From Agromyces terreus (GTDB taxonomy: Bacteria; Actinomycetota; Actinomycetes; Actinomycetales; Microbacteriaceae), in assembly GCF_009749465.1 (NCBI RefSeq), contig NZ_WBIS01000001.1, positions 124,001-188,000 of the forward strand: a stretch of DNA of 64,000 nt. Direction: 5' to 3'. The notes under the pieces are model-generated. The model searched no databases. It saw nothing but the letters and a program-made list of their open reading frames with translations, and was not told where the DNA came from. The position numbers and the translations under genes are program-made. Below are positions 8,437 to 45,014 of the stretch, piece after piece (positions within the stretch are counted from its first letter, which is position 1; each line of letters begins with the position of its first letter).

Positions 8437-9477
8437 ATGCGCGTCGGCATGTTCCTGAACTACGCAGGCGGATTCCGCGAGGTGGCCGACGAGGTCGTCG
8501 AGCTCGAGCAGGCCGGCGTCGACCTCATCGCGATGCCCGAGGCGTACTCGTTCGATGCCGTCAGCCAGCTCGGGTTCCTCGCGGCGCGCACCTCCCGCAT
8601 CACCCTGGCCTCCGGCATCCTGCAGCTGTACACGCGCACGCCCAGTCTCACCGCGATGACGGCGGCGGGGCTCGACTACGTCAGCGACGGCCGCTTCGAG
8701 CTCGGCATCGGCGCGTCCGGGCCGCAGGTCATCGAGGGCTTCCACGGCGTCAAGTACGACGCGCCCGTGGGCCGCATCCGCGAGATCGTCGACATCTGCC
8801 GTATGACGTGGCGTCGCGAGCCCGTCGTGCACCAGGGACGCAACTACCGCATCCCGCTGCCGGCGGGCGAGGGCACGGGGCTCGGCAAGCCGCTGAAGCT
8901 CATCAACCACCCCGTCCGCGACCGCATCCCCATCTCGATCGCCGCCCTAGGCCCGAAGTCGGTGGAGCAGACGGCCGAGATCGCCGACGGCTGGCTGCCG
9001 ATGTTCTACCACCCCGAGAAGGCGGCGGATGTCTGGGGCGCCGCGCTCGCCGCGGGTGCCGCGAAGCGCTCCGACGAGCTCGGGCCGCTCGACGTGCACG
9101 CGAGTCCGGCGCTCGCCATCACCGATCACCCCGAGGCCGTGCTGCCGCTCGTGAAGCCGCAGCTGGCGCTGTACGTGGGCGGCATGGGCGCACGCGGGAA
9201 GAACTTCTACAACGACCTCATCTCGAGCTACGGGTTCGAGGCCGAGGCCGCGCGCATTCAGGATCTCTATCTCGAGGGTCGCCGCGACGAGGCGATCGCG
9301 GCGGTTCCCGACGAGCTCGTGCGGGCGATCTCGCTCATCGGCACCGCGTCCGAGGTTGCCGATCGCGTCGCCGCGTTCCGCGAGTCGGGGGTGACGACGC
9401 TCGCGGTGACCCCGCTCGCCCGTTCGTCCGCCGAGCGCGTCGCGCTCATGTCGGCGTTCCGCGAGCTCGTCGGCTGA
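8437..9477 (+). CDS. LLM-class F420-dependent oxidoreductase
   Basis: This 346-residue protein has the luciferase-like TIM barrel: RVGMFLNYAGGFREVADEV at the start, then ASGILQLYTRTP and LGIGASGPQVIEGFHG in the middle. These suggest binding of the deazaflavin F420, as in actinobacterial homologues of Rv3520c. The substrate is not known. AGGAG sits eight bases before the ATG. It stands alone upstream of the tRNA/intron patch. Confidence 0.85.
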   Translation: MRVGMFLNYAGGFREVADEVVELEQAGVDLIAMPEAYSFDAVSQLGFLAARTSRITLASGILQLYTRTPSLTAMTAAGLDYVSDGRFELGIGASGPQVIEGFHGVKYDAPVGRIREIVDICRMTWRREPVVHQGRNYRIPLPAGEGTGLGKPLKLINHPVRDRIPISIAALGPKSVEQTAEIADGWLPMFYHPEKAADVWGAALAAGAAKRSDELGPLDVHASPALAITDHPEAVLPLVKPQLALYVGGMGARGKNFYNDLISSYGFEAEAARIQDLYLEGRRDEAIAAVPDELVRAISLIGTASEVADRVAAFRESGVTTLAVTPLARSSAERVALMSAFRELVG

Positions 9478-9865: not shown

Positions 9866-9906
9866 GGTGGGCCCCGTGGGGCTCGAACCCACGAATAGTG
9901 CGATGG
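9866..9906 (-). pseudogene. 3' fragment of a second tRNA
   Basis: On the minus strand the T-arm is intact: GTGGG, loop TTCGAGC, then CCCAC at 9876-9892. It is followed by an acceptor strand GGGGCCC, an A and CC. Only about 25 bases separate it from the end of tRNA-Lys, so no room is left for a D-arm and 5' acceptor strand. The sequence is not a copy of the Lys 3' end. It may be a decayed tRNA or the remains of an integration event. The amino acid identity cannot be given. Confidence 0.6.
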
Positions 9907-9931: not shown

Positions 9932-10254
9932 TGGTGCCCCCACAGGGGCTCGAACCCTGGACCCACGGATTAACCTGCTGCACTAAGTTTCCCTAGCCAC
10001 CGTCTCCGGCTTGCAGTCTGGACTATATCTTCACCTTCGGCCGGGCCGTTCAGGTGCGCCGCGTGTAGTCTCTGAGGTTCCCTTGCGGTTACCTGCTGAT
10101 TGCCCAATCCCTCGGATTGTCACTGCCAAGAAGGCGAGTACCTCGGGCTCTCAGGGTGTTCCAGCATATAGCGGCGGTCATCTGACGTATTTCGACGTCA
10201 GCGCTCCATTTGTTTTGTTGAAGTCCGTTGCTCTACCAACTGAGCTATAGGGGC
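9932..10254 (-). tRNA. tRNA-Lys(UUU) interrupted by a group I intron
   Basis: Exon 1 is 10254-10221 and exon 2 is 9973-9932, read on the minus strand. Joining them gives acceptor GCCCCTA pairing with TGGGGGC, D-stem GCTC/GAGC, anticodon stem ACGGA/TCCGT, loop CTTTTAA, T-arm CAGGG-TTCGAGC-CCCTG, discriminator A and an encoded CCA. The split falls between positions 34 and 35 of the anticodon, so the tRNA works only after splicing. A -10-like TAGGGT lies just upstream of the 5' end. No other tRNA-Lys is in the window. Confidence 0.88.
9974..10220 (-). ncRNA. Group I self-splicing intron in tRNA-Lys anticodon loop
   Basis: The intron is 247 bases long with no room for an internal gene. On the minus strand it contains CTCAGAGACTACACG (R element, around 10062-10076) and AAGATATAGTCC (S element, 10020-10031). 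GACTA and TAGTC of these elements pair to form P7, which holds the guanosine site. An AATCAGCAGG segment further 5' matches the Q element. The 5' exon ends in T and the intron ends in G, as group I splicing needs. The insertion site, after position 34, matches that of cyanobacterial tRNA-Leu(UAA) introns. Confidence 0.87.
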
Positions 10255-10433
10255 ATTCATCACCCTAACAGGATCCGTGAGTCGCATCGGTGCTGCCTCC
10301 AGTACGGCTCTCAGGGTGAATCGATCAGTGACGACGTCGGTGGTGAACCGTAATGTGTGCGACGCGCTGCGCGATCAACCACCGTGAGATTGCTGCCGCG
10401 CTTCGATTTGTGCGTTTCGAGCGAAGGAGGATT

Positions 10434-10910
10434 GTGAAGAGGTGCTCCACGTGTCGGATCGAGCGTGCGCATTCAGACTTCAATCTGCGCAAGGCGTCGC
10501 GCGATGGCTATCAGTCGGTGTGCCGGGCTTGCAACAAAGCGCGTGCCAGACGCTACTACGTTGAGAATCTCGAGCATCATCGTCGGGCGGTGGCTGTACA
10601 GGTCGCGAAGACCAGGGCTGCTCACCTCGAACGCATCGGCACGTATCTCCTCTCTCATCCGTGCGTCGACTGTGGGGAGCGAGACATTCGTGTCCTCGAT
10701 TTCGACCATCGACATGGTGTCGAGAAGTCGGGCGAGGTGATGAAGCTCGCGAAGGCGGCCTACTCGTGGCGCCGGGTTGCGGCCGAGATCGTGAAGTGCG
10801 ACGTCCGCTGCCGCAACTGCCACGCCCGTGTCACCTACGAACGGCTTGGAGACGACTGGCGTAGCCGGATGTGGTCCCAGCGGCAGGCCGAGATCCAGCC
10901 GGCGGAGTAG
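10434..10910 (+). CDS. HNH endonuclease-like protein next to the intron
   Basis: This is a 158-residue protein. The N-terminus has a zinc-finger pair, CSTC (4-7) and CRAC (30-33). The C-terminal half has CVDC (77-80), the DFDHRHG metal site (89-95) and CRNCH (126-130), a treble-clef HNH fold as in phage and free-standing homing nucleases. A strong AAGGAGG precedes the GTG at 10434. The frame is open further upstream, but that part lacks a binding site. It lies about 180 bases upstream of the tRNA-Lys 5' end on the opposite strand. A role in intron spread is possible but unproven. Confidence 0.7.
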   Translation: MKRCSTCRIERAHSDFNLRKASRDGYQSVCRACNKARARRYYVENLEHHRRAVAVQVAKTRAAHLERIGTYLLSHPCVDCGERDIRVLDFDHRHGVEKSGEVMKLAKAAYSWRRVAAEIVKCDVRCRNCHARVTYERLGDDWRSRMWSQRQAEIQPAE

Positions 10911-10920
10911 CCTTGCGTCG

Positions 10921-11565
10921 ATGGCCTCCGACGACAGTTTCCACCGGCCGACCCGGTTCGCCCCGCACAAGTTCGACGCGATCGTGGGCGGTGCCGATCC
11001 GGCGCAACTCAGCCGCATGGCGCACGACACCGCGTCGGCGCTCCTCGCACGTGTGCGCGAAGATCCCGATCCGGCGGTGGTCGCCCGGCTCGTGTCGTAC
11101 ACCGACGAGCACGGCATCGACGCGATCGCCGAGCTCTGGTCGCACGCGGCGGCGAAGAGCCTGCCGGGGGCGCTCTGGCGGGTCTACCTGCTGCGCACGC
11201 TCATCCGACAGGATCCGCAGGGCGTGAGCCTCGGCTATCAGCGCGGCGCCGAGGTCTCGCACACGATCGACCAGGTCGTCGCGGGCGCCCCGGCCCCGGC
11301 CGGCCCCGACGAGGTCCGCGAACTCGCCGACCGCATCCTGCAGGGGGTGTTCACGGGCGACTTCGCCGTCGCCCTCGACCGCGCCGCGGCATTCTGCCGG
11401 GTCGTGGCCGCGGGGTTCGCGAGCATCGCCGACGATGCGGATGCCTCGGACTCGGTGCACCCCGATCGTCCGGGCGAGCTGACCCGCCGTGCCCTGCGCC
11501 TCACGCAGCTCGCCGACGAGCTGCACGCGTGCGCCCGGCTGTGGCGTCGAGACGCCCTCGACTGA
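10921..11565 (+). CDS. Conserved actinobacterial protein of unknown function
   Basis: This 214-residue protein has no signal peptide or membrane segment. It is rich in alanine-heavy helices, with visible stretches such as FAPHKFDAIVGGADPAQLSR and LPGALWRVYLLRTLIRQDP. The style suggests an all-helical cytoplasmic protein. I recall similar proteins in Microbacteriaceae but know no function. The start is the ATG at 10921, ten bases after the HNH stop. Codon use is like the rest of the window, unlike the HNH gene, so this marks the right edge of the accessory patch. Confidence 0.65.
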   Translation: MASDDSFHRPTRFAPHKFDAIVGGADPAQLSRMAHDTASALLARVREDPDPAVVARLVSYTDEHGIDAIAELWSHAAAKSLPGALWRVYLLRTLIRQDPQGVSLGYQRGAEVSHTIDQVVAGAPAPAGPDEVRELADRILQGVFTGDFAVALDRAAAFCRVVAAGFASIADDADASDSVHPDRPGELTRRALRLTQLADELHACARLWRRDALD

Positions 11566-44941: not shown

Positions 44942-44996
44942 GGTTGTTCTTCTCCTTCACCGGCAGGTACGTGCCGGACGATCCGTAGTGATGGAC

Positions 44997-45014
44997 TGCG
45001 TCGACGTCGACGCA
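44997..45014. promoter_or_regulatory. 18-bp perfect palindrome upstream of the sugar ATPase
   Basis: TGCGTCGACGTCGACGCA reads the same on both strands, with a central ACGT. It lies 56 bases upstream of the ATPase ATG, in its leader or promoter. LacI-type operators have comparable size and a central CG. A weaker hairpin (44960-44977) follows before the start codon. Confidence 0.45.

Follow-up and report, generated by a model that had tools for sequence, protein, structure and literature searches.

A tRNA-Lys(UUU) gene is split by a group I intron

Agromyces terreus is a soil bacterium. On the minus strand at 9932-10254 of the window (the whole 64,000-nt stretch of its DNA that we analysed), it carries a tRNA-Lys(UUU) gene split between positions 34 and 35 by a group I intron. 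A preliminary description of this DNA, made from the letters alone, had proposed both the intron and its insertion site, and both are confirmed here. A gene for a free-standing HNH endonuclease lies beside the tRNA and is transcribed away from it; that description had noted neither this gene nor the tRNA remnant listed below. The features of the locus are listed below.

8437-9477, plus strand: luciferase-like monooxygenase gene (flanking family 3), the usual neighbour on the other side from the nuclease
9866-9894, minus strand: 29-nt remnant of a native GGGCC-type tRNA-Lys(UUU), made up of T arm, acceptor 3' strand and ACC
9932-9934, minus strand: encoded CCA of the split tRNA-Lys(UUU), read from the sequence
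9935-9973, minus strand: 3' exon of tRNA-Lys(UUU), positions 35-73, read from the sequence
9974-10220, minus strand: group I intron of 247 nt (RF00028, covariation and ORF list)
10021-10025, minus strand: P7 3' strand, UAGUC, in the S element
10057-10062, minus strand: P3 3' strand, GCGGCG
10066-10070, minus strand: P7 5' strand, GACUA, in the R element
10171-10176, minus strand: P3 5' strand, CGCCGC
10204-10223, minus strand: P1, with the U.G pair at the 5' splice site (CUU^CA / UGGAG)
10221-10254, minus strand: 5' exon of tRNA-Lys(UUU), positions 1-34, read from the sequence
10335-10356, plus strand: candidate PafBC/P1-type promoter motif upstream of the HNH gene, CGTCGGTG-N8-TAATGT
10431-10910, plus strand: free-standing HNH endonuclease gene, 158 aa, divergent from the tRNA (PHROG match, family alignment and structure model)
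10915-11565, plus strand: conserved flanking gene (family 1, no Pfam hit), a fixed neighbour

An Infernal search of the whole window with the Rfam group I model (RF00028) returned a minus-strand match at 10007-10230 of 59.3 bits, above the gathering threshold of 50 (E = 1.7e-12), and a P3-P7 core is present. No ORF of 80 aa or more on the ORF list lies wholly within the intron. Its structure was assessed in an alignment (A2) of 22 sequences with both exons, in which pairs were counted over the 21 distinct sequences. The structure, named by hand, comprised P1-P9, the P3-P7 pseudoknot and the tRNA cloverleaf (85 pairs, 1765 cells), and standard pairs filled 99.5% of the cells. Twelve pairs had changed on both sides, compared with 6.2 +/- 1.2 when the 3' letters were shuffled. 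Sliding the partners by 1-3 columns left 31-44% of them paired and gave at most one both-sided change. The both-sided changes were located in the P2, P5 and P8 extensions, the P9 hairpin and the T arm, whilst the P3, P4, P6, P7 and P8 pairs were retained in all 21 sequences. The intron core is thus conserved rather than covarying. U34 pairs with G in P1, and this U.G pair at the 5' splice site is invariant in A2, as is the last intron base, G281 in the numbering of the window's row.

With introns allowed, ARAGORN detected the split tRNA, shifted the site by one and called it Asn(GUU). We rejected a spliced tRNA-Asn(GUU) because it would need the 5' cut to fall on a U-A pair, because A occupies the discriminator position and because the genome encodes a separate tRNA-Asn(GUU) elsewhere. 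The Lys(UUU) identity is favoured by the U.G pair, the seven-base anticodon loop, the separate tRNA-Asn(GUU) and A73, a discriminator that we take to separate Lys from Asn identity. It is also favoured by the relatives that carry tRNA-Lys(UUU) at the same locus. The insertion site, 34/35, is presumably the position of the intron in tRNA-Leu(UAA).

The split gene encodes the only AAA-reading tRNA found in the genome

The preliminary description had raised the possibility that no other UUU tRNA is present, and the genome (3.7 Mb in 27 contigs, 99.98% complete) bears this out. Besides the split gene, 46 tRNAs scored above the Rfam cut-off; the sole tRNA-Lys among them is CUU, an anticodon that cannot read AAA. 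Two sequence patterns for the intact gene found no intact tRNA-Lys(UUU) in the genome. The eight frames near the locus, HNH gene included, use 2 AAA and 29 AAG codons for lysine, so AAA is rare yet used. The intron would excise itself, with a 5' cut after U34 and a 3' cut after the terminal G. This splicing would leave a normal tRNA-Lys(UUU) and thereby allow the cell to read AAA.

Two other RNA features were observed. Elsewhere in the A. terreus genome (L061, C12:871759-871800), an isolated 3' half of a tRNA scores under the Rfam cut-off; it may be what is left of the attachment site of an integrated element. At 44944-45003 of the window, on the minus strand, there is an msiK RNA (RF01747, 63.6 bits), a cis-regulatory RNA family.

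The neighbouring HNH family is associated with tRNA genes

The GTG start of the HNH gene was picked by conservation. Its frame matches PHROG 2255 (HNH endonuclease, E = 1.8e-32), and H93, N129, H131 and nine Cys are invariant in the 38-row family alignment. Neither Pfam (best 0.17, zf-C3HC) nor PADLOC gave a match to the protein, NCBIfam gave none above cut-off, and a sequence search of solved structures gave cytochrome matches alone (E = 0.09). Its structure was modelled at pLDDT 95, and the model matched PDB folds weakly (best E 0.13, best Z 5.6), among them the HNH protein 4h9d (Z 4.5 over 65 residues) and Hpy99I (Z 5.6 over 39). These matches of a predicted model to Hpy99I and HNH nickase folds fit the HNH assignment but prove little.

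Relatives were drawn from 84,980 species genomes by protein similarity alone, and the best 80 of 95 confirmed loci were studied. A tRNA gene lies within 206 nt of the HNH gene in 79 of these 80 bacterial loci, where chance would give a rough 1.2% per locus. Among the best 80 of 95 the partner is most often tRNA-Lys(UUU) (57 loci), followed by Arg(UCU) (9), Pro(UGG) (5), Trp (3), Cys (2) and Arg(UCG), Arg(ACG) and Gln (1 each), with one locus lacking a partner. For 43 of the 57 Lys(UUU) partners, which have introns or odd T arms, the tRNA was identified via custom sequence patterns and not by ARAGORN. The HNH gene is present in 18 of 398 sampled Microbacteriaceae. At two loci (L255, 4014-4490; L256, 3833-4310) the HNH frame extends, antisense, into tRNA-Arg(UCU) at its 3' end and terminates with SPRRDSNSRPSG. 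HNH relatives in Eremiobacterota (L323, L328, L334-L336) are directly upstream of, or overlap, tRNA-Pro(UGG), and at four of these five loci more tRNAs (Arg, His; Lys too in two) follow behind it.

Phages also carry the family. An HNH relative is found in 192 phage records, directly beside a tRNA gene in all four that were viewed, and ARAGORN found a tRNA within 200 nt at 12 of the 32 viral loci checked (32 of 80). Passages of two studies describe HNH genes within mycobacteriophage tRNA arrays (PMC5966550, PMC6409571). The intron DNA itself matched none of 50,697 phage records, and no phage record matched the intron-bearing tRNA.

The motif upstream of the window's HNH gene resembles the LexA/RecA-independent consensus tTGTCRgtg-8-TannnT given in a passage of PMC5656591, with C in place of the first T of TGTC. 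The pattern YGTCRGTG-N8-TANNNT has a single match in the 64 kb, where 0.02 are expected. A looser motif was found within 450 nt upstream of HNH at 47 of the 80 loci, compared with 2.6 and at most 6 in 50 shuffles, and on the reverse strand at 2 of 80; a stricter motif was found at 24 of 80 loci against 0.08 in shuffles. Two WYL-domain frames lie 1 kb apart in the genome, as expected of pafB-pafC. The promoter sequences thus suggest that the HNH gene is DNA-damage-inducible, of PafBC type. At 8 of 11 loci with the odd tRNA described below, the motif lies on the far side of the tRNA, past its 3' end; a nuclease transcript from there would open with antisense tRNA.

Two unlike introns occupy the same position

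Among the best 80 of 95 HNH loci, 13 carry the window's intron (intron 1) and 19 a second, diverged group I intron (intron 2) at the same site of tRNA-Lys(UUU). As a result, 32 of the 57 nuclease-linked tRNA-Lys(UUU) genes are split at 34/35. The 13 and 19 named loci all adjoin HNH, but they were found through HNH. Of the intron-2 loci, 17 belong to Microbacterium and two to Frankiales, and the tRNA and nuclease genes are arranged in tandem; L276 3667-3967 is one of the 19. With lax filters, three of five scored intron-2 loci reached sub-threshold scores of 32-38 bits against the group I model, and the other two gave no group I match at E 0.1. Two unlike introns at one position beside one nuclease family would fit a nuclease that targets that position.

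The preliminary description regarded a Lys(UUU) host in an actinobacterium as unusual. The host stands, but the gene is not a one-off: intron 1 occurs in 15 of 60 Agromyces genomes (13 by Rfam and two more by blastn) and also at seven Microbacterium loci. Rarity across Actinomycetota has likewise to be qualified. An RF00028 search of Microbacteriaceae matched in 2 of 398 genomes, probably an undercount because the filters were strict and intron 2 scores low, and a group I match was found in 60 of 396 sampled Actinomycetota genomes, A. terreus included. Among 29 Actinomycetota group I loci, ARAGORN in intron mode placed ten split tRNAs in or close to the matched region, with the names Asn, Thr, Gln, Ser, Tyr and Asp. 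These isotypes are unsure, since ARAGORN misnames the window's own gene, and the same holds for the group I matches at tRNAs called Asn, Thr and Gln at L425-L427, L429, L430, L436, L437 and L442. At six of the 29 loci, all in other Actinomycetota (L430, L431, L433-L435, L443), a distant HNH match (E 1e-6 to 1e-13) overlaps the intron or lies within about 150 nt of it.

One tRNA gene changes repeatedly beside stable neighbours

Across the 60 Agromyces genomes, tRNA-Lys(UUU) is found in four types. Alongside the 15 genomes with the intron, 26 have a canonical intact gene, three an altered anticodon stem and 15 an odd type with a short D loop, T53-T61 mismatched in most and the loop GTCGGAA in 14. 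Thirteen genomes had at first seemed to have no tRNA-Lys(UUU). This was refuted for 12 of them, in which a looser pattern revealed the odd type; in the remaining genome (G011, an assembly in 840 contigs) no tRNA-Lys(UUU) was found, the looser pattern included. Loci L171-L182, L285 and L298 combine the odd T arm (T53-T61) with the short D loop and, except for L182, have the loop GTCGGAA. A genome assembled in 810 contigs (G021) has the intron tRNA-Lys (L156) and an intact copy (L258) on separate contigs, possibly through contamination.

Synteny, judged by the protein families of neighbouring genes, is stable. Of 60 loci in 59 genomes (G021 has two), 58 have two conserved genes on one side, and the tRNA is flipped relative to its conserved neighbours in four loci. 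A tree of three flanking genes was built by a quick method for 58 rows, with G013 and the second G021 copy left out. It is not a species tree, because its genes are linked to the locus. On this tree, allele type (intron, odd, altered stem or canonical) requires 20 changes. The intron requires 10 when scored by itself, at least 7 of them forced by well-supported branches, and the odd and canonical types have 9 forced changes each. Sister rows differ in allele: the window's intron is paired with a canonical gene in A. salentinus, and introns in G029 and G050 are paired with odd types in G012 and G016.

The HNH tree, comprising 71 named rows, the window and G008, after nine of the 80 loci were excluded for stops or short proteins, gives a similar picture. 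Here intron 1 requires 9 changes, at least 6 of them forced, and the HNH sequences of the window and of A. salentinus, a species with an intact tRNA, are sisters (support 100/90).

The window also retains part of a displaced gene. The remnant at 9866-9894 follows the CCA of the split gene after 37 nt and is continuous with the native 3' flank; remnant and flank match the corresponding site of G055 with 95% identity across 40 nt. The incoming split tRNA therefore replaced all but the native 3' end. Such a remnant was seen at one of the 15 intron loci.

Nuclease presence follows altered alleles without reaching significance

An HNH relative is found in 32 of the 60 Agromyces genomes. It lies at tRNA-Lys(UUU) in 30, where three copies are broken or partial, and a weaker copy adjoins tRNA-Arg(UCU) in three, one of which is also among the 30. 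The tRNA-Arg(UCU) genes beside these three copies comprise two unlike alleles, both of which differ from the HNH-less allele of the A. terreus genome.

Presence was entered by hand for each genome, with broken copies counted. HNH adjoins the intron allele in 10 of 15 cases (one copy broken; these loci were found through the intron, and five have no HNH), the odd allele in 14 of 15 and the altered stem in one of three, as a fragment. It adjoins the canonical allele in 5 of 26, for example in G008, G040, G058 and G059. A raw Fisher test thus links altered alleles to HNH (25/33 vs 5/26, p = 1.7e-5). In independent pairs on the tree, 5.2 of 9 were for the link, 0.4 against and 3.4 tied (median p = 0.125). 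The direction is consistent, but the association is not significant after correction for relatedness.

We also considered altered tRNA as the general source of immunity to the nuclease. This idea is less convincing given that one and the same canonical tRNA sequence occurs both in genomes that have HNH and in genomes that lack it. In A. tardus (G059), which has HNH, the tRNA is identical to HNH-less ones such as that of G009, so its sequence cannot be the protector there.

A chromosomal homing system is the favoured reading

The split AAA tRNA and the tRNA-associated nuclease suggest a selfish element that repeatedly swaps an essential tRNA gene. An ordinary single intron in an actinobacterium was rejected as the whole story, since the HNH partner and the allele changes recur. 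We consider it probable that the locus is a collaborative homing system, in which an intron and the adjacent nuclease operate on the chromosome with an essential tRNA as the battleground. Such a system would have three parts: the free-standing, putatively damage-inducible HNH endonuclease, an intron without a nuclease of its own and the host tRNA-Lys(UUU) gene. The most likely target of the HNH enzyme would be any resident tRNA-Lys(UUU) gene without protection. With a transferred piece of chromosome or a phage as the donor for repair, the nuclease would then be imported together with the donor tRNA allele, and the intron with it if present. Split or altered alleles would be spared from cutting.

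In favour of homing we count the adjacency to tRNAs at 79 of 80 loci, the split in 32 of 57 partners and the syntenic locus for which the flank tree nonetheless requires 20 allele changes. The native remnant, the PafBC-type motifs, the phage relatives at tRNAs and the six of 29 intron loci near HNH count on the same side. The five canonical tRNAs with a nuclease and the five introns without one count against it. A wider reading, which we put forward tentatively and think rather doubtful, is that of a natural cleave-and-rescue element. In whatever cell it reaches, a damage-induced nuclease would destroy an essential tRNA gene whilst the same small piece of DNA carries a cleavage-proof copy, protected through recoding or because a self-splicing intron interrupts its anticodon loop. 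An essential translation gene would thereby be driven through populations and between genera, and the nuclease family would act in this way at Lys, Arg, Pro, Trp, Cys and Gln tRNAs in several phyla.

The main rival to homing is that decayed tRNA-dependent prophages could explain how the first alleles arrived: a phage destroys tRNA-Lys(UUU) and supplies its own, the tRNA and HNH gene remain, and the nuclease plays no part in the swaps. Mycobacterium and Gordonia phages do so at tRNA-Lys-TTT, according to passages of PMC10865867, the window's remnant is a native tRNA 3' end like an att remnant, and the phage HNH relatives adjoin tRNA genes. A variant, in which the intron was kept for breaking the attachment site, has a parallel in the proposal that introns block viral integration at Sulfolobus tRNAs (a passage of PMC4090602). 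We nevertheless judge this explanation unlikely. A Pfam scan of the eight flanking frames found no integrase, though a fully decayed prophage would leave no more than this; gene order at the locus is otherwise maintained across the genus, and phage records hold no match to the intron tRNA. Taken alone, it also fails to explain why a single HNH family accompanies tRNAs for Lys, Arg, Pro, Trp and Cys.

A still less likely explanation than prophage decay is that tRNA flanks are merely safe, recombination-prone sites for HNH insertion and that the swaps are ordinary homologous recombination. HNH does adjoin unchanged canonical tRNA-Lys (the G008, G040, G058 and G059 cases), and the allele association loses significance under phylogenetic correction. 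Against this stand the close spacing (0-206 nt) and the strong Lys(UUU) and Arg(UCU) preference of a single nuclease family, the flank tree with its 20 allele changes in one essential tRNA and the two unlike tRNA-Arg(UCU) alleles beside HNH in three Agromyces genomes. We regard as very improbable an arms race in which odd or imported tRNA-Lys alleles resist tRNA-Lys-cutting RNases with HNH as a passenger. Phage tRNAs escape host anticodon nucleases via anticodon-loop changes (as described in part of PMC10264068), and the odd alleles do differ in anticodon stem and T arm. The HNH protein has no PADLOC match and is found beside tRNAs of six amino acids, and the intron would give no resistance, since its spliced product would be a canonical tRNA.

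Relation to known systems

The cyanophage enzyme of collaborative homing is, we presume, F-CphI, with psbA. Joint transfer of an intron and a separate endonuclease has been proposed for phages in passages of PMC2988022 and PMC10448857, and the Agromyces locus resembles these systems (cyanophage, T3 and T7-like phages, ICP1) in having the endonuclease gene separate from, and adjoining, the intron-bearing gene. It differs in its bacterial chromosome, tRNA host, damage motif, intact and altered alleles and two introns. T4 SegB and mycobacteriophage HNH enzymes are likewise homing endonucleases in tRNA regions, held in parts of PMC2988022, PMC6409571 and PMC5966550 to spread or diversify tRNA genes. 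SegB is a phage-borne GIY-YIG enzyme, whereas in Agromyces a single essential chromosomal tRNA is replaced, often by an intron-split one. The tRNA-dependent lysogeny of phage Fionnbharth, as outlined in PMC10865867, is similar in that a native tRNA-Lys(UUU) is destroyed and replaced by a tRNA of the same isotype; it is driven by the integrase of a prophage, whereas the frames scanned at the Agromyces locus contained no integrase.

The intron is like other bacterial tRNA introns in being of group I and unlike them in its tRNA-Lys(UUU) host, its actinobacterial setting and its neighbouring HNH gene. Bacterial group I introns are also found in tRNA-Arg(CCU), and 22-49 nt is too short for a group I core. 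The hosts named in passages of PMC4033280 and PMC8450103 are Leu(UAA), fMet and Ile tRNAs of cyanobacteria and proteobacteria, and according to part of PMC5733544, tRNA-Arg, -Gly and -Lys(CTT) genes of cyanobacteria contain introns of 22-49 nt that it assigns to group I. Among the papers listed by searches of 5.39 million open-access articles, queried without the name Agromyces, none was seen from its title, abstract start or passages to describe such an intron in tRNA-Lys(UUU) or in any tRNA of Microbacterium or Agromyces.

If the homing reading is true, the reach of collaborative homing, known from phages, widens to the chromosomes of bacteria and to a non-coding gene that is essential. Homing may also account for the 20 allele changes that the flank tree requires of a single essential tRNA beside stable neighbours. 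The locus could further serve to test how group I introns without an ORF spread and why the introns of bacterial tRNAs are sited in the anticodon loop.

Such introns escape tRNA finders, as noted in a passage of PMC8450103, and this was the case here. ARAGORN in default mode overlooks the intron-split genes and also misses 11 of the 12 odd-T-arm tRNA-Lys genes at L171-L182. Genomes can therefore seem to be without AAA decoding, of which annotators should be warned.
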